Assembly: GCA_002256595.1 (NCBI GenBank)
Contig: NOLC01000045.1
Location: 1-20,322 of the forward strand
Source of the DNA: Methanosaeta sp. NSP1
GTDB lineage: Archaea > Halobacteriota > Methanosarcinia > Methanotrichales > Methanotrichaceae
DNA: 20,322 nt
Direction: 5' to 3'
A program made the position numbers and the translations under genes. This document shows positions 4,366 to 11,036 of the stretch, one piece after another. Position 1 is the first letter of the stretch, and every line of letters begins with the position of its first letter. The notes beneath the pieces were generated by a model. That model ran no database searches. It was not told the DNA's origin and saw only the letters and a list, made by a program, of their open reading frames with translations.

Positions 4366-4469
4366 CATCCTGGAGAGAATGCGGATTTATATAGTTTAGC
4401 TATTCCATATTTTAAAATTTCAACCAATTAGGTTATCACGACCTAACCAGGAGCCAAAATCAAATTGAA

Positions 4470-4544
4470 AGCCGCCGATGGGATTCGAACCCATGAACTG
4501 CTGATTACGAATCAGCCGCTTTAACCGGGCTAAGCCACGGCGGC
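4470..4544 (-). tRNA. tRNA-Thr, anticodon CGU
   Basis: The minus strand folds as a full cloverleaf. The acceptor stem is GCCGCCG/CGGCGGC, and the D-stem GCTT/AAGC includes GG in the loop. The anticodon stem GCTGA/TCAGC encloses loop TTCGTAA, which gives anticodon CGU for the ACG codon. The T-arm is ATGGG-TTCGAAT-CCCAT. The discriminator is U, as expected for archaeal tRNA-Thr, and CCA is not encoded. There is no intron. A possible box A (CTTAAATT on the minus strand, around 4577-4585) lies about 35-40 bases upstream. The gene follows the cyclodeaminase gene by about 50 bases on the same strand, with a small hairpin (GCAGGG/CCCTGC, 4552-4574) between them. Confidence 0.95.
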
Positions 4545-4595
4545 CCGCTGAGCAGGGAACCACAGATCCCCTGCCAATTTAAGTTTTCCGCTTCC

Positions 4596-5840
4596 CTAGC
4601 AGGGCCTCTCCTTCTCTTCCGCCCCGCTCTCAAGCCTTTCAATCTCCTCCGCCAGCCGGGGCAGGAATATGCCGATATCTGTGACCAGTCCGATAGCCTG
4701 GGCCGAGCCCCGGTCCATGAGCTTGGTCACCGTTGACGGATTGATGTCCACGCAGATGGTCTTGACATAGGATGGCAAAAGGTTTCCCACGGCAATTGAG
4801 TGCAGCATGGTTCCCAGCATGATGGTCATGTCCACCCCGCGCAAAGCCTGGTCCATGGCATCCTTGGCCTTGACCGTGTCTGTGATCACCTCGGGCAGGG
4901 GCCCGTCATCGCGAATGGACCCGGCCAGGATGTATGCGATGCCCTTCTGGGTGGCCTCGTACATGATGCCGCCTTTCAGCTTTCCTTCGGCTATGGCGTT
5001 CTTGATGGAGCCGCTGGCCATGATCTCGCTTATAGCGTAGAGGTGATTTCGATGCCCACCCGAGATGGCGTTGCCCTGACAGTTCATGCCCAGGCTGGTC
5101 CCGAATAGCTGCCGCTCGATATCATGCACCGCCACAGCGTTCCCGGCCAAAAGGACATCCACATAGCCATCCCGAATCAGCCTGGCCAGAGCAGGAGCCG
5201 CCCCGGTGTGTACCAGCGCCGGGCCGCAGACTACAGCAATCTTTCCGCCCGCTTTCTTGGTCTGGACGATCTCTGCTGCAAGCTGGCGCACCAGCTCCCC
5301 GCTGGGCCGCTCCGAGCTGACCTCATTGGACATGAAGCCGAAGAATGTCTTCACCCTGGGCCGCTCCGGCGGAACCACCTTGACCCCGGAGGTGCCTATG
5401 ACCACACGATCGCCTTTCTTGATGTGGCCTATGGGCGTGCAGATGGCCCGCCCGTCCTGCAGCACAACCTGGCAGTCCATGTGATTGTGCTCCACCTCCA
5501 CCCAGGAGCCCTGGTACCGGACGTAGGTGGGATGATTGGTGGTGGAGTAAAATCCCCTGGGCACGACCATATCCCCCGGTGAGACGCCGGTCTTGACATC
5601 CTCCATCTCCACCAGTCTTGCCCCCAGGGCATGCAGCTCCAGGAGTATGCGGTCCAGATGAGCCTCATCCTCGCCGGTGACAGTGATCTGGACATAGCTG
5701 GTGTCGTTCTTCTTCTGGCCTATCTGAAAGTTTTTGATCTCGAACTCGCCTCCCATGTCCATGATCTTGTCCAGGACGCGGGTCATCATCTGCGAGTCTA
5801 TGAGATGCCCCTGCATCTCTATGTCTGCAATCTCACTCAT
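4596..5840 (-). CDS. TIGR00300/LOR-SDH family protein, probable archaeal ornithine cyclodeaminase
   Basis: 414 residues. The N-terminal part resembles the LOR/SDH domain: G-H-L-I-D-S near the start, then P-R-G-F-Y-S-T-T-N-H-P-T and a D-G-R-A-I-C-T-P-I-G loop. The C-terminal part has nucleotide-binding-like segments C-G-P-A-L-V-H-T-G, L-L-A-G-N-A-V-A-V-H-D-I-E and M-L-G-T-M-L-H-S-I-A-V-G-N. Relatives include the C-terminal half of cyanobacterial ArgZ/AgrE and an archaeal enzyme reported to convert ornithine to proline. The proline role is therefore family knowledge and not proven by this sequence. It is the last gene of the CBS/RNA-ligase cluster, starting 13 bases after the ligase stop, with GAGG a few bases before the ATG. 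Confidence 0.8.
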   Translation of the reverse strand: MSEIADIEMQGHLIDSQMMTRVLDKIMDMGGEFEIKNFQIGQKKNDTSYVQITVTGEDEAHLDRILLELHALGARLVEMEDVKTGVSPGDMVVPRGFYSTTNHPTYVRYQGSWVEVEHNHMDCQVVLQDGRAICTPIGHIKKGDRVVIGTSGVKVVPPERPRVKTFFGFMSNEVSSERPSGELVRQLAAEIVQTKKAGGKIAVVCGPALVHTGAAPALARLIRDGYVDVLLAGNAVAVHDIERQLFGTSLGMNCQGNAISGGHRNHLYAISEIMASGSIKNAIAEGKLKGGIMYEATQKGIAYILAGSIRDDGPLPEVITDTVKAKDAMDQALRGVDMTIMLGTMLHSIAVGNLLPSYVKTICVDINPSTVTKLMDRGSAQAIGLVTDIGIFLPRLAEEIERLESGAEEKERPC

Positions 5841-5853
5841 AATCCTCGGCCTT

Positions 5854-6948
5854 CTACCACATCTCTCCGTCTAAGAGCGCCTGGGTCTTATCATTTGTGC
5901 TCATGACCAGCTTGGTGATGCCGATCCGATATCCTTCGTCGTCCGGCATGGGCGGATCGAATATGGCCCTAATTCCGCTCCGGCGCAGGTGGTACTCGAA
6001 GTCCCTGGCCGTCTGCAGGTTCTGAATCTCCCCGGCGCGCTTGCTCTCGATGGTCTCAATCATAGGCAGGAGAATGCTCTCTCCAATGCGCTGCGCCCTC
6101 TTCCGCCTCTCCTCCTCCGACTCATTCCACTCCACGGACTGAAAGCCCTCCCGCACCACCCGGGAGAGAAAGAAGTCCGTGGCATAATCATTGTAGTATT
6201 GAAATCCCACTGCAATGTCGCTGCAGTTGGTGGCCGAGCTGGTGTACTTTATTGGGGGAACCTGGTTTTCCGGGTCCTTGAGCACCACTCCCTCCCGGCC
6301 TTGCCGGCCCAGGCGGACCACAATCTGCCTGATCTTCTCCGCTGCCCCATCCTTCTGAAACTGGCCCAGGAAAGCCGTGGCCTTCAGTCCGAACCGCTCC
6401 GCCAGCTCGTGGGTTTTATGCACGCCCAGGGTTTTCTTGCGATTTTTCTCTGCCACATCAAAGAGGTAAAAGTCGATGCTGTCTGTGGGATAGACCTCCT
6501 TGGCCACATAGGGATTCTCCGGCCCCACCATCTCACCGCATAAGATCAGGCTGGGCTGCTTTAGAAATATCTCCTCCGGAACCAGCCTGCGGGCCACCTC
6601 GGTGGAGTAGGGGCAGATGAATCCGCCCCGGGTCAGGGCCACCATCTCGCTGCTCACGGATAAGATCCGCACATTGTGGCCGTTCATCTTCTCCTCAACC
6701 GCCACAGCTTTGGAGAAGTGGCGCTCTATGGCCGGGGCCAGGAACAGGGGCCGGCGGATCTTGGGATAGCCGAAGGCTATATCCCCATTTTCAAAAACAA
6801 CTGTGCCTGCCTCGACCCCCGAGGCTTCTTTCTCAAAACGGAGCAGTCGGGGCTCGGGCCAGGCAGACTCTCGAATTATGGTCTCTTGCAGGCCTTGCAG
6901 CCTGCTCTCTGTCATTCCCAGTATCTGTGCCACTCTGGCCAGATTCAT
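5854..6948 (-). CDS. Archaeal ATP-dependent RNA ligase (Rnl3 type)
   Basis: 364 residues with the nucleotidyltransferase motifs in order. Motif I is E-E-K-M-N-G-H-N-V-R with adenylated K87. G-E-M-V follows near 138-141, D-F-Y-L-F-D-V near 159-165 (motif III), E-G-V-V-L-K at 219-224 (motif IV), and P-I-K-Y-T at 232-236 with K234 (motif V). The long C-terminal region matches the homodimer-forming tail of the Pab1020/MthRnl family. These enzymes join 5'-phosphate and 3'-OH ends and circularise single-stranded RNA. The ATG overlaps the stop of the upstream CBS gene by four bases (ATGA) and has GAGG five bases before it, so the two are almost surely co-translated. All catalytic residues I can recognise are intact. 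Confidence 0.93.
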   Translation of the reverse strand: MNLARVAQILGMTESRLQGLQETIIRESAWPEPRLLRFEKEASGVEAGTVVFENGDIAFGYPKIRRPLFLAPAIERHFSKAVAVEEKMNGHNVRILSVSSEMVALTRGGFICPYSTEVARRLVPEEIFLKQPSLILCGEMVGPENPYVAKEVYPTDSIDFYLFDVAEKNRKKTLGVHKTHELAERFGLKATAFLGQFQKDGAAEKIRQIVVRLGRQGREGVVLKDPENQVPPIKYTSSATNCSDIAVGFQYYNDYATDFFLSRVVREGFQSVEWNESEEERRKRAQRIGESILLPMIETIESKRAGEIQNLQTARDFEYHLRRSGIRAIFDPPMPDDEGYRIGITKLVMSTNDKTQALLDGEMW

Positions 6949-7727
6949 CCGGTCCTCGCCAGATAATCCAGTATGGACCGCCGGGTGATCATGCCCACCA
7001 CCTCTTCCCTGCTGCGGCTCAAGACCGGCAGGCCTCCACGGTTATCCTCCAGAATGGTCTTCTTGACCTCATCCAGGGGGGTGTCCACATAAACATACTG
7101 AACATCATGGGTCATGACATCGGAGACCAGTATATTGTAGATTCTGGCATACTGCTTGCTGGCGGTATCATTGAGGTCCCGGAAAGCCCGCATGGATTTG
7201 GCTATATCCCTCTCCGAGATGATGCCCACCAGCCTGCCGCTCTCCACCACAGGCAGACGTCCTACGTCCCGGTCCAGCATCATGCGTCGGGCATGAACCA
7301 GCCTGTCGTTGGGATTGACGGTAAGGGGGAATCTCATGGCATCGCCCGCCGTGCCGCTTACCTTGACTGCTGCCAGTACATCCCGGGGCCGAACCCATCC
7401 CAAAACCTTCTCTCCATCCATGACCACCAGCACGCCGGTCTTCTGCATCAGAGCCATGGCATCTTCCACCTGCATATCGGGAAGGACCTTGATCAGCGAG
7501 TCCATGGTGGCGGAAGCCACATGAAGAGATGAGGCGGGCATTCCCAGGGACTTGCGGGCGCCAAGCACCCGAGCGATCTGTCTGGTGGTAATCACTCCAC
7601 CCAGCTTATCCTTATTGGTGACCAAAAGCCTTCGAAGATCGTTTTTCTCCATCAGATCCAGAGCATGGCCCAGCCTCTCTGATTTGTCAATGCTCATCGG
7701 CTCGCTCATGATATCTTTGACCTGCAT
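6945..7727 (-). CDS. Four-CBS-domain protein (cluster member 5)
   Basis: 260 residues made almost wholly of CBS motifs. The first is V-K-D-I-M-S-E-P-M-S with G-G-V-I-T-T-R-Q-I. The second is divergent and centred on V-L-G-W-V-R-P-R-D-V. The third has G-R-L-P-V-V-E-S-G-R-L-V-G-I-I-S-E-R-D. The fourth is V-S-D-V-M-T-H-D through G-M-I-T-R-R-S. Paired CBS motifs form Bateman modules that commonly bind AMP, ATP, SAM or similar ligands; there is no attached enzyme domain. An insert before the last motif (D-T-A-S-K-Q-Y-A-R-I-Y) has a counterpart in the upstream 286-residue paralogue, so the two look like a duplicated pair. A near-perfect ribosome site (GGAGGTG) lies 7 bases before the ATG, which immediately follows the upstream stop codon. 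It overlaps the RNA ligase gene. Confidence 0.9.
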   Translation of the reverse strand: MQVKDIMSEPMSIDKSERLGHALDLMEKNDLRRLLVTNKDKLGGVITTRQIARVLGARKSLGMPASSLHVASATMDSLIKVLPDMQVEDAMALMQKTGVLVVMDGEKVLGWVRPRDVLAAVKVSGTAGDAMRFPLTVNPNDRLVHARRMMLDRDVGRLPVVESGRLVGIISERDIAKSMRAFRDLNDTASKQYARIYNILVSDVMTHDVQYVYVDTPLDEVKKTILEDNRGGLPVLSRSREEVVGMITRRSILDYLARTG

Positions 7728-8588
7728 TTACTTCCACCTCCCTATCTCAGCGATGATCTCGTCTGCAGAGAAGTAGCCCACTACCTCATCATTGTCCAGC
7801 ACCGGCATGCCTATGATGTTCTTGTCCACCAGCATCCGGCTGGCAGAGGCTGCCTTCTCCTCCGCTCCGATGGTGAAGATGGGCGATGTCATGATGTCCT
7901 CGGCCACAAATGGCACCTGCTTGACATAGCGATACTGCTTTCTGCCGGCGGTGCTGTCCTTTCGGGTCATCTTTATGTTCTTGGTCTCCATTTCGTCCTT
8001 GGGCCCCATGATCTCGGAGAAGGTGAGGCCCGATCTGGTAACTATCCCCACTGGTTTGTTGCTGTCCTCATAAACCAGGGCTCGGCTCTGTCCCTGCACA
8101 TTCATCTCCTCCAGGACGTGGCCTATGGTATGGTGGCGGTGAACCGCCAGGATATTCCTGGTCATCAGGTCGCCAACTGTGGCCTTGATGTCCTGCTCGG
8201 AGAAGTATCTCATCATATCTCGGGAGGTGATCATGCCTGAGATCTGACCTTCGCGTTCCACCGGCAGTCCTGATATGTCGTTTTCAATTAGAAGCTGTGC
8301 TGCCTGGGGCATGGTGGCGTCGGGGAATATGGTGATGGGCTTTTCGGTCATCACCACCTGGATGGGAACCTTGTCTATGGGCCTGCGGCGCCACTCAGGG
8401 GTAGCCTGGTTGAGCCGGTTAGTGATATCGTATTTAGTGACAATGCCTACCAAGCGCCCGTCCTCCATAACCGGCAGTCTGCCGATGCCATACTTGAACA
8501 TCAGATTCCTGGCTCTCTGAATGGGCTCATTTCGCTCAATGATATATATGGGAGCGCTCATGTAATCTTTGACTTTCTTTATGATCAT
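7728..8588 (-). CDS. Four-CBS-domain protein (cluster member 4)
   Basis: 286 residues with four CBS motifs: V-K-D-Y-M-S-A-P / G-I-V-T-K-Y-D; V-M-T-E-K-P-I-T / G-M-I-T-S-R-D; V-G-D-L-M-T-R-N / G-I-V-T-R-S-G; and A-E-D-I-M-T-S-P / G-Y-F-S-A-D-E. A basic insert between motifs 3 and 4 (R-K-D-S-T-A-G-R-K-Q-Y-R-Y-V-K) parallels that of the next gene. The ATG overlaps the upstream CBS stop (ATGA), and GAGG lies 9 bases before it. The stop codon abuts the next ATG with no spacer. There is no catalytic domain, membrane segment or signal peptide. It is probably a cytoplasmic regulatory subunit; the ligand cannot be read from sequence. Confidence 0.9.
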   Translation of the reverse strand: MIIKKVKDYMSAPIYIIERNEPIQRARNLMFKYGIGRLPVMEDGRLVGIVTKYDITNRLNQATPEWRRRPIDKVPIQVVMTEKPITIFPDATMPQAAQLLIENDISGLPVEREGQISGMITSRDMMRYFSEQDIKATVGDLMTRNILAVHRHHTIGHVLEEMNVQGQSRALVYEDSNKPVGIVTRSGLTFSEIMGPKDEMETKNIKMTRKDSTAGRKQYRYVKQVPFVAEDIMTSPIFTIGAEEKAASASRMLVDKNIIGMPVLDNDEVVGYFSADEIIAEIGRWK

Positions 8589-9559
8589 GGTAGAATTCCT
8601 CTGTTCTCGGCCAAAGCCCTCACATAGTCTCTCTCGGTCAGAATGCCAGCCAGAGATCCCCGGTCCATAACCGGCAGAGATCCGATGTCGTTGTCCATCA
8701 TCTTCCTGGCCGCCTGGCCCAGGTCTGCCTTCCTTTCTGTGGACAGCAGGCTTCTCTTTATAAGGCTTTTTATGGGCTGGTTCATGACCTCGGTGATGTC
8801 TCCAGTGATCACCTTCTGGAAGGCCTCGCCTCCTCCCAGATACTTCATGATATCCGATGCGGTTACCATGCCCATCAGCACCCCGTCCTGGACTACAGGC
8901 ATGCGCCGGAATCCCTTCTGGATGATCATCCTGGTCATCTTCTCAATGGTGGTCTGGGCCGGCGCTGTCACCACATTGGGGCTCATGAATGCCTCTACCT
9001 CCAGCCCGGTCTCCAGGCCGCGGCAGAAGCGCACGAAATCCTCTTCTGTTATTATGGCCTTGATGCGCAGATCTTCATCTAATATGGGCAGGCCGCCCAC
9101 ATTCTTCTCGTACATCAGCTTCAAAACGTCATTTAGGGAGGCCTTGTCGTCGGCATAGGTGAGATTGGTGCTCATTATATCCCTGATGTCGGCATTGATT
9201 GCGGTGTAGATGTTTCCGCCATACTTCTCTGCCAGCAGATTATGCCGCAGCCCTCCTCCCAGGAAATCGACTACATCCACGGATGTGACAAAGCCTATCA
9301 GCCTCTTGGTGCCGGGATCGGCTATGGGAAGCCGGGAGAAGCCATAGAATATCATGGTCTTTATGGCACCCATGATGGTGGTGGTAGGCGGAACGGTGAC
9401 CACATCCGGTGAGGCCACTCCCACCACATTGCTGATGCTCTTGGCATTTCGGGAGTCGAATTGAAGTGGTCCTCTCTCCCCTGACCCGGGGGTAGGCATA
9501 CGATCGCTCTTTAGCGGAATCCTGGTTACTTCCTTTCCCGTTGTTGGCCCTTTGCTCAT
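8585..9559 (-). CDS. Four-CBS-domain protein (cluster member 3), with basic N-terminal extension
   Basis: About 324 residues. The first ~40 are a low-complexity, Lys/Arg/Pro/Gly-rich segment without a CBS fold. Four CBS motifs follow, marked by G-F-V-T-S-V-D, I-I-T-E-E-D, G-M-V-T-A-S-D and G-I-L-T-E-R-D. The last is preceded by an insert rich in Ser and Lys. I chose the ATG at 9559 because GGTGA, 6 bases before it, is a good ribosome site. A GTG at 9565 in the same frame would overlap the upstream stop by ATGA-style coupling (GTGA) and is possible. It is the longest member of the array and the only one with such an N-terminal extension, which might contact a partner or nucleic acid (inference). 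Confidence 0.9.
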   Translation of the reverse strand: MSKGPTTGKEVTRIPLKSDRMPTPGSGERGPLQFDSRNAKSISNVVGVASPDVVTVPPTTTIMGAIKTMIFYGFSRLPIADPGTKRLIGFVTSVDVVDFLGGGLRHNLLAEKYGGNIYTAINADIRDIMSTNLTYADDKASLNDVLKLMYEKNVGGLPILDEDLRIKAIITEEDFVRFCRGLETGLEVEAFMSPNVVTAPAQTTIEKMTRMIIQKGFRRMPVVQDGVLMGMVTASDIMKYLGGGEAFQKVITGDITEVMNQPIKSLIKRSLLSTERKADLGQAARKMMDNDIGSLPVMDRGSLAGILTERDYVRALAENRGILP

Positions 9560-9561
9560 CT

Positions 9562-10338
9562 TCACTCACCAAGGTAACATTTGATCAGATCATTTCTGTC
9601 CACAATTCCCACGAGCTTTCCATCATCCACCACAGACATCCTGCCCACGTCATGCTTGAGCATCAGCTCGATTGCCGTCCGTACGCTGTCTTCCGGATTT
9701 ACGCTGAATAGTGGCGTGCTCATAAATTTCTCCACAGCCATCTGCATCGAGTCCGACGGCCTTCTCTCACTCTCTTTGCCTATCCTGGCAGTGCCTTTGA
9801 GCAGATCAAATCTGGTGATCATCCCCATTATCTTGTCGTCCTTGACCACCGGAAGGCCGGTGAAGTCCTTCTCCACCATGAGATCCCAGATCCTGGTTAT
9901 GGGATCATCCGGACGAGTGGTTACCACCTTGGTGGTCATGATATCTGATACATTTTTCTTGGGCACGCTACCCAAATCGATATTCTTAAACACATCCAAA
10001 AGGCTGACCACACCATTGAGGACCGGCTTTTCCTGGGACTCGATAACCGGGAGCAGACTTCTTTTTTCCTTGAGCATAATCCTGGCGGCTTCAAGAATGG
10101 GCGTCTTTCCCGTCACAGTGGGAACCGAGACTACATAACCCGATACAGTCACATTTGACTTGGTCGAGGTCACTCTCAGCATATCCTGGCTGGTGATAAT
10201 GCCCAGGACTGTGCCCTTGCTGCTCAGTACTGGCAGTCCACGTACATGATGGTCTCGAATAATCTGACGGGCTTTGGTGAGATAAGTGGAATCCTCTACG
10301 TATAGAGGATCTCTGGACATAATGTCTTCAACCAACAA
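9562..10338 (-). CDS. Four-CBS-domain protein (cluster member 2), TTG start
   Basis: 258 residues with four CBS motifs: V-E-D-I-M-S-R-D / G-I-I-T-S-Q-D, a divergent second motif ending G-V-V-S-L-L-D, V-S-D-I-M-T-T-K / G-M-I-T-R-F-D, and V-E-K-F-M-S-T-P / G-I-V-D-R-N-D. The start is TTG at 10338, 8 bases after a GGAGG ribosome site. A second TTG follows at 10335, and no ATG fits before motif 1. The GGAGG partly overlaps the 3' arm of a small hairpin (10350-10363), which could modulate initiation. It lies 36 bases after the CBS/zinc-ribbon gene, the widest gap within the cluster. Confidence 0.9.
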   Translation of the reverse strand: MLVEDIMSRDPLYVEDSTYLTKARQIIRDHHVRGLPVLSSKGTVLGIITSQDMLRVTSTKSNVTVSGYVVSVPTVTGKTPILEAARIMLKEKRSLLPVIESQEKPVLNGVVSLLDVFKNIDLGSVPKKNVSDIMTTKVVTTRPDDPITRIWDLMVEKDFTGLPVVKDDKIMGMITRFDLLKGTARIGKESERRPSDSMQMAVEKFMSTPLFSVNPEDSVRTAIELMLKHDVGRMSVVDDGKLVGIVDRNDLIKCYLGE

Positions 10339-10349
10339 ATGTGATTCCT

Positions 10350-10363
10350 CCGCTGTCCAGCGG
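10350..10363 (-). promoter_or_regulatory. Short hairpin abutting the ribosome site of CBS member 2
   Basis: CCGCTGTCCAGCGG reads as a 5-6 bp stem with a 2-4 base loop. On the mRNA the last two G of the 3' arm are the first two of GGAGG, before the TTG start. It could limit initiation or mark a processing site between the first and second CBS genes. This is inference from position. Confidence 0.35.
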
Positions 10364-10374
10364 TGATTACAATT

Positions 10375-10929
10375 CTATCTATTTCCGTCCCTGCAGCTCC
10401 AGCAGAGCAGTTCCCCGTTAACATTCTCCAGGGTATCGGATAGCATGCTGCAAACCTCGCAGATGCCTCTTGCCATTCCCTGAGGCGCATCAAAGTGAAC
10501 GCTCTCCCGGTGCATCTCCAACAGGTCGCTTAAAATATCATTCATGCCCACAGAGGAGCCCGAGGCCAGATCGGTGTCTGTGATTATGCCGACCAGCCTT
10601 CCCTTGGCTATCACAGGTAGCCGTTTTACTCCGGAGCGAAGCATCAGGGCGGCTGCTTCTCGCAAACTGGCCTCCGGCTCAATGGAGACGACGGGTGAAC
10701 TCATGATCTCGGCCACCTTGATGGTGCGGGGGTCTTTTCCTTCCGCCAGGACCTTCTTTACCAGGTCCCTTTCGGTTAGTATTCCTGTGGTATTTCCGCT
10801 GTCTACTATAATCAGGCTGCCCACATTGGCCGAGCCCATCTTCTTGGCAGCGCTTAAAATGTCCAGGTCGGCTCCGATCGTGATAACCGGTCGGGTCATT
10901 ATATCTCGCACTGGAATCTCCGTCTCCAT
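10375..10929 (-). CDS. Two-CBS protein with C-terminal zinc ribbon (Ta0289-like), first gene of cluster
   Basis: 184 residues. CBS motif 1 (V-R-D-I-M-T-R-P to G-I-L-T-E-R-D) and motif 2 (V-A-E-I-M-S-S-P to G-I-I-T-D-T-D) form one Bateman module over about residues 1-125. The C-terminus has two CxxC knuckles, C-E-V-C and C-W-S-C, 16 residues apart, a zinc-ribbon layout. This architecture matches Thermoplasma Ta0289, a structurally studied CBS/Zn-ribbon protein of regulatory nature. A TATA box at about 10976-10988 lies 50-60 bases upstream. The A/G-rich AGGGGGAAG, about 9 bases before the ATG, serves as ribosome site. As first gene with its own promoter it probably leads the operon. Confidence 0.88.
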   Translation of the reverse strand: METEIPVRDIMTRPVITIGADLDILSAAKKMGSANVGSLIIVDSGNTTGILTERDLVKKVLAEGKDPRTIKVAEIMSSPVVSIEPEASLREAAALMLRSGVKRLPVIAKGRLVGIITDTDLASGSSVGMNDILSDLLEMHRESVHFDAPQGMARGICEVCSMLSDTLENVNGELLCWSCRDGNR

Positions 10930-10975
10930 TGGCCAATCTTCCCCCTGATAGCTCTATATCCTTATCAGAGTGCTA

Positions 10976-10988
10976 ATCATATAAAAGG
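10976..10988 (-). promoter_or_regulatory. BRE/TATA promoter of the CBS cluster
   Basis: The minus strand reads CCTTTTATATGAT, with TATA centred near 10982. A start about 26 bases on would leave a leader of roughly 25 bases before the ATG at 10929. The box is flanked by an imperfect inverted repeat, GTGCTAA (10970-10976) and TGAGCAC (10993-10999), which may be an operator. Confidence 0.5.
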
Positions 10989-11036
10989 CTACTGAGCACG
11001 TACAAGATTTAATGCGATTAATATTATTTTTTCATA

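Follow-up and report, generated by a model that had tools for sequence, protein, structure and literature searches.

The seven open reading frames (ORFs) at positions 4596-10929 of a 20,322-nucleotide stretch of Methanosaeta sp. NSP1 (GenBank assembly GCA_002256595.1, contig NOLC01000045.1; hereafter the window), all of them on the minus strand, are probably an archaeal operon for ribosome silencing by CBS-module proteins (sri-type), of which an RNA ligase has become part through long inheritance together. Five adjacent genes, here numbered CBS1 to CBS5 from the first, encode CBS-domain proteins, and they are followed by an ATP-dependent RNA ligase of the Rnl3 type and an ornithine cyclodeaminase. 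The basis of this reading lies in one-to-one close sequence matches, gene order and distribution. The genome is a draft, Methanothrix-like and 69.7% complete. A prediction made earlier from the letters of the sequence had proposed that the five CBS proteins may assemble into a single hetero-oligomeric sensor that governs the ligase and/or the cyclodeaminase, thereby linking energy or ornithine/proline status to RNA end-joining.

In a search of the Protein Data Bank (PDB), CBS2 to CBS5 each found as best match a different chain of a Methanosarcina acetivorans 70S ribosome, over nearly full length (E 2.2e-59 to 3.1e-80). By their titles, entries 9ZNF, 9ZNG and 9ZNI are M. acetivorans 70S complexes with SriA/SriB, SriD and SriC/SriD, respectively. 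CBS2 matches chain 4 of 9ZNF, which is SriA only if the letters follow gene order, and CBS3 matches chain 5, the other of the SriA/SriB pair (2e-76), as well as MJ1225 (2.6e-55); CBS5 matches chain 7, SriD, in both 9ZNG and 9ZNI (5.7e-75), and CBS4, which matches chain 6 of 9ZNI (3.1e-80), can be assigned as the SriC homologue by comparing what these two entries are titled. It is very probable that the four-CBS genes are ribosome-silencing genes of the sri type, and since their products match chains of ribosome complexes, the run is better understood as an operon that silences ribosomes through CBS modules than as a free sensor of the ligase. The predicted sensor fares badly here, because the homologues of CBS2 to CBS5 sit in ribosome complexes in which no ligase chain is known; given the Sri structures, sensing on behalf of the ligase was set aside as the main function in favor of ribosome binding. 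The gene order is identical in the Methanosarcina loci L112, L116, L132 and L138, and also in L172 and L173. The likeness to SriA-SriD has its limits, in that the host here is Methanothrix-like and neither CBS1 nor the ligase has a full-length chain match in the Sri entries.

Other archaeal systems point in the same direction. In its accessible text, the paper describing HibA (PMC13324472) regards CBS-module proteins as hibernation factors and places some of them in dormant M. acetivorans ribosomes, and the families CM-1 to CM-6 defined there resemble the proteins of the window in being four-CBS proteins encoded in gene clusters and proposed to act as ribosome hibernation factors; its main text contains no occurrence of "RNA ligase" or "operon". 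Dri of Pyrobaculum calidifontis, a fold match, likewise places four-CBS modules on ribosomal subunits but, according to the accessible part of the same paper, carries two modules in one chain, in contrast to the separate genes of the window. CBS2 to CBS5 are 258-326 amino acids long, with four CBS domains running almost to the C terminus. That any of them is HibA itself was ruled out, as the HPF/RaiA-like fusion domain of about 120 residues is absent and Pfam reports CBS domains only.

The remaining CBS protein, CBS1, had been predicted to carry a zinc ribbon, and a C-terminal CxxC...CxxC ribbon is indeed present, its four cysteines being invariant in all 22 rows of an alignment (A3) that includes the window and in which two rows come from one genome. 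The PDB search gave no full-length match for CBS1, the Sri chains aligning to its CBS part alone. Its best fold match is of the TA0289 type, which also combines two CBS domains with a metal ribbon, although the ribbon part lies outside the CBS1 alignment. The [TS]xxD motif of nucleotide sites is kept at both sites of CBS1 (22/22 rows), at three of four in CBS2, all four in CBS3, two of four in CBS4 and one of four in CBS5; CBS1 to CBS4 may therefore sense adenylates.

The ligase occupies the same place well beyond the window. We inspected 120 ligase loci, consisting of 80 named loci (the best 80 of 241, weighted to close relatives of the window) and 40 further loci hand-picked, as were 20 ligase-less CBS5 loci, to span families; some named loci belong to the same genomes as loci of the 295-genome draw described below (e.g. 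L097 and L153). In 107 of the 120 loci the ligase is preceded by CBS genes on its own strand, 13 having none, and the order CBS1-2-3-4-5-ligase is invariable among the members present, which bears out the conserved synteny in relatives that had been anticipated. All five genes are found in 76 of the 107, 12 loci of family f8 carry CBS1 and CBS3 only, and 19 have other subsets; in some of these the contig ends within the locus, and in others CBS2, or both CBS2 and CBS3, is really missing. Families f1 and f3 are Methanotrichaceae and Methanosarcinaceae; f8 is assigned to Archaeoglobaceae, and f12, f17 and f21 to haloarchaea, by inference. The nearest upstream cluster gene is CBS5 in all 80 named loci, in five of them across a gap of 1.26-1.35 kb. 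For genus g7 (e.g. L174, L176), CBS2 and CBS3 are absent from the cluster; no CBS3 was found in ten g7 genomes, and in others it lies elsewhere (G252, G264, G274).

A presence survey covered 295 genomes drawn evenly from the phylum (Halobacteriota), with cut-offs of E up to 1e-30 for CBS5, E up to 1e-50 for CBS3 and the TIGR01209 cut-off for the ligase. It found the ligase in 126 genomes, CBS5 in 148 and CBS3 in 189. Of the ligase genomes, 71 have CBS5, 42 belong to family f8 and the other 13 have neither CBS3 nor CBS5, CBS5 or CBS3 being present in 113 of the 126. In a coordinate comparison of 110 genomes, 109 had CBS5 or CBS3 on the strand of the ligase and no more than 4.4 kb upstream of it (96 within 250 bases), and one had it on another contig. 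Among genomes with both the ligase and CBS5, a same-strand upstream CBS5 was seen in 70 of 71 (57 within 250 bases and 13 at 1.27-4.4 kb, the latter all Methanosarcina-group genomes of genera g8 and g14), the last having the two genes on separate contigs. CBS3 lies 44-90 bases upstream of the ligase in 39/39 f8 genomes compared; of the other three of the 42, G142 was viewed as locus L152 and G043 and G094 were left out. The link between CBS genes and ligase is real as genome organization and, judged from gene content and order, the partnership is old and stable, and not obligate. In the sources accessible to it, our literature search found no reported link between Rnl3 and CBS proteins.

Within the window itself (Table 1), the architecture described in the original prediction is confirmed. 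It had counted about 18 CBS motifs in five adjacent proteins, and there are exactly 18 CBS domains, every one above the curated cut-off of PF00571, out of 29 in the whole draft genome; Pfam returned no domain other than CBS for these proteins, in keeping with the claim that none has an enzyme domain. The predicted joining of CBS2 to CBS5 and the ligase by 4-base overlaps or zero spacing was confirmed by measurement: the spacings are +36 (CBS1-CBS2), -4 (CBS2-CBS3), -4 (CBS3-CBS4), 0 (CBS4-CBS5), -4 (CBS5-ligase) and +13 (ligase-cyclodeaminase), and they fit a single transcript. As for the ribosome site ascribed to each of these genes, G-rich stretches resembling such sites precede most starts, by eye and unscored. 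The gap before CBS1 is likely the operon promoter, as read by eye. The run is more than chance, because the same order recurs in other families.

Table 1. Features of the run and its upstream gap in the window
Feature	Positions	Strand	Match or basis
CBS1, first gene: 2 CBS domains and C-terminal CxxC...CxxC ribbon	10375..10929	-	
CBS2: 4 CBS domains	9562..10338	-	homologue of 9ZNF chain 4 (SriA or SriB)
CBS3: 4 CBS domains and N-terminal extension	8585..9565	-	homologue of 9ZNF chain 5, MJ1225
CBS4: 4 CBS domains, conserved basic loop preceding the fourth (alignment A5)	7728..8588	-	homologue of 9ZNI chain 6 (SriC)
CBS5: 4 CBS domains	6945..7727	-	homologue of chain 7, 9ZNG and 9ZNI (SriD)
ATP-dependent RNA ligase, Rnl3/Pab1020 type	5854..6948	-	TIGR01209, PF09414, PF18330
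Ornithine cyclodeaminase, nickel-pincer-nucleotide type	4596..5840	-	TIGR00300
Gap before CBS1, AT-rich TATA-box-like stretch (likely promoter)	10930..11036	-	by eye

The ligase was correctly predicted to be of the Rnl3 type, scoring 355.5 bits against TIGR01209 (cut-off 136.9), with a Lig_C domain (PF18330, 5.7e-34). Its nucleotidyl-lysine motif (KxxG) is intact as EEKMNG, E85-G90 being invariant in all 14 aligned ligases, the window included, and its PDB matches are 5d1o (2.3e-79), which we take to be MthRnl, and Pab1020 (2vug, 9e-56). The nearest named ligases, from a Methanosaeta bin and a Methanothrix bin, are 90% identical. The ligase thus shares with Rnl3, MthRnl and Pab1020 the TIGR01209 family, the Lig_C domain and the nucleotidyl-lysine motif; what sets it apart is its genomic neighbor, a CBS set in the window as opposed to HARP in families f12, f17 and f21.

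Several observations weigh against the reading of the run as a silencing operon with the ligase as a long-standing member. No chain of the Sri entries was among the PDB matches of the ligase. Of the 148 CBS5 genomes, 77 have no ligase above the cut-off, and 14 of the 20 ligase-less CBS5 loci contain all five CBS genes (five have fewer); the CBS set can therefore do without the ligase. Conversely, the 13 of 126 ligase genomes that lack both CBS3 and CBS5 indicate that the ligase can exist without the CBS set. No nearby CBS genes were seen at the ligase in 11/11 loci of f12/f17/f21 and in two other loci. The cluster is also split in one group, an opposite-strand AIM24-family gene standing between CBS5 and ligase in 7/7 Methanosarcina loci viewed; the scrambling or splitting named in the original prediction as a sign against it is found to that extent. 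AMP or ATP had no clear effect on ribosome binding by HibA, according to the accessible text of PMC13324472. Finally, HARP is present in 124/126 ligase genomes and in 129/295 overall, five HARP genomes having no ligase above the cut-off, and ligase presence tracks HARP more closely than it tracks the CBS genes; this co-occurrence agrees with a published survey, as far as its accessible part goes.

The alternative that survives best, possible in our view but rather doubtful, builds on these last points: the ligase would serve C/D small RNA (sRNA) maturation with HARP or alone, and its position after the CBS genes would be an old arrangement without joint function. Besides the near-universal company of HARP, this is favored by the divergent HARP gene at 143-2489 bases from the ligase in 11 of 12 ligase genomes of f12/f17/f21, by a published hypothesis whose accessible text couples HARP and Rnl3, and by the loss of C/D sRNA circularization in an Rnl knockout, as given in the accessible part of that report. 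However, HARP is not adjacent to the ligase in the CBS-bearing genomes compared by eye (the closest, in G111, at 9.8 kb), and order and strand are constant over nine families, even in f8, where CBS2, CBS4 and CBS5 are lost from the cluster. A mere relic also sits uneasily with the presence of RtcA and KptA in the same neighborhood in one family and of RtcA in another. In Methanosarcinaceae, RtcA, KptA (on the opposite strand) and an RPA-like OB-fold gene occur upstream of CBS1 (Pfam names from L175 and L180); all three are present in six loci (L174-L177, L179, L180), L178 has KptA and the RPA-like gene, and six more loci have the RPA-like gene alone, the available stretch ending soon after. 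Distances were entered for 48 genomes, a part of those of the families: in 43 of them RtcA and CBS5 are no more than 15 kb apart, the remaining five being one genus. RtcA is on the same strand and 4.4-10.3 kb upstream of CBS5 in 40 Methanosarcinaceae genomes, and in family f6 it is convergent, 120-132 bases after CBS5, in 3/3 genomes; these appear to be two independent arrangements. Within the phylum RtcA is widespread (228/295 genomes), and in the other families none was found near CBS5 or CBS3 in the genomes compared by eye.

On the reading of a silencing operon with its ligase, homologues of SriA-D would fill vacant ribosome sites during starvation and keep the ribosome inactive and protected. 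CBS1 could be an accessory, possibly sensing, subunit, and the adenylate sites of CBS1 to CBS4 could modulate binding or release. For its part, the Rnl3 ligase would use ATP to seal 5'-phosphate/3'-hydroxyl RNA breaks during dormancy or on leaving it, its substrate plausibly being ribosomal RNA (rRNA), transfer RNA (tRNA) or guide sRNA of stored ribosomes, and the cyclodeaminase would be a later addition in Methanotrichaceae. Silencing in this organism, the role of CBS1, adenylate control and the substrate and timing of the ligase are what we infer by homology and gene context. That the ligase may repair RNA around dormant ribosomes is suggested by the synteny, the RtcA/KptA neighbors and a bacterial parallel, because of which we read it as their repair or sealing partner. 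For example, the accessible part of the literature places RtcB, an rRNA-repair ligase, among the common neighbors of the hibernation gene Balon; there too a hibernation-factor gene lies near an RNA repair ligase gene, although the proteins are unrelated on both sides and the most frequent Balon neighbor is RaiA. In the accessible data on a Thermococcus Rnl knockout, the recovered rRNA fragments were changed (one replicate). Tentatively, many methanogens and relatives within the Halobacteriota may keep a "sleep and mend" island, in which ribosome-shielding CBS proteins are combined with enzymes that heal and seal RNA ends (Rnl3, joined in Methanosarcinaceae by RtcA and KptA). If true, rRNA or tRNA would be mended before translation restarts, and the island would be an archaeal counterpart, built from unrelated parts, of the bacterial Balon-RtcB neighborhoods. 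The natural role of Rnl3 ligases is unsettled between C/D sRNA circularization, partnership with HARP and general repair, and the constant position of the ligase at the tail of a silencing cluster in nine families offers a lead toward RNA sealing or repair around dormant ribosomes. The rows of CBS genes in methanogens gain a likely job, and the pairing draws attention to CBS1 as a fifth, conserved CBS protein, no ribosome structure of which was found.

The other explanations are far less probable. We give little credence to the five CBS proteins acting as one free nucleotide-sensing hetero-oligomer that directly switches the ligase and/or the cyclodeaminase; a conserved cluster with 4-base overlaps in the window and conserved nucleotide-site motifs would suit it, but the nearest relatives with solved structures are bound to ribosomes, most ligase-less loci inspected have the full CBS set, the cyclodeaminase is confined to one lineage among the loci examined and the Methanosarcina cluster is interrupted by an opposite-strand gene. 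The same completeness without ligase speaks against a reversed signal, which appears equally improbable and in which the adenylated ligase, under RNA-end scarcity or stress, would make a dinucleoside polyphosphate (Ap4A-like) as ligand of the CBS proteins; the accessible text of a review lists RNA/DNA ligases (T4 phage, Pyrococcus furiosus) as Ap4A makers and describes Ap4A binding in the CBS domains of IMPDH, and by its structure title the CBS protein AcuB was solved with Ap4A. Least probable of all is a role of the ligase in making or maintaining the circular 23S rRNA of methanogen ribosomes on which the CBS proteins act, since, in the accessible parts of the reports, 23S rRNA is indeed circular in M. 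acetivorans ribosomes but its circularization is attributed to EndA and RtcB, and reads of circular 16S/23S are still present when Rnl is knocked out in Thermococcus; moreover, 169/295 genomes have no Rnl3 above the cut-off.

The last ORF of the run had been called cyclodeaminase-like, and its score of 583.4 bits (cut-off 410.8) against TIGR00300 ("ornithine cyclodeaminase, nickel-pincer nucleotide-dependent") goes beyond that wording. The gene is found in 36/80 named loci, all of the Methanotrichaceae type (L061-L096 minus L091, whose contig ends where it would follow, plus L100), and in one of the 40 further loci, where about 4 kb separate it from the ligase. It was set aside as a member of the module, being lineage-specific among the loci examined, and is probably a neighbor outside the conserved part; confined in this way to one lineage, it leaves the suggested ornithine/proline link to the ligase weak. 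A tRNA-Thr gene (anticodon CGT; 4469-4545, minus strand) lies directly downstream of the run.

In the 20 ligase-less loci, a single shared enzyme replacing the ligase after CBS5 was looked for and none was found, the next genes being different. A deoxyhypusine synthase-like gene, another translation-related neighbor, is first or second downstream in seven of them (L187, L188, L191, L193, L194, L196 and L198; one checked by Pfam) and within the flank in eight; the three f6 genomes carry RtcA in this region. Locus L200 has all five CBS genes, CBS5 being split, and a 54-residue C-terminal ligase remnant fused to the start of an RRXRR domain (7580-7867), an arrangement that looks as after an insertion. 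In L180 (7001-8184; genome G026) the ligase lies in two overlapping frames beside five intact CBS genes, which may reflect a frameshift or a decaying ligase. Compared with the other 13 aligned ligases, that of the window is missing nine residues in its C-terminal domain. The ligase of L030 has an in-frame TAG at match residue 229, an invariant glutamine in the 14 aligned ligases, and G025, a second genome of that family, likewise has one ligase TAG. Three genomes of one Methanosarcinaceae genus (L001, L003 and L004) share an in-frame TAG at the same ligase site, at about residue 44 of the match, which is a candidate for pyrrolysine.

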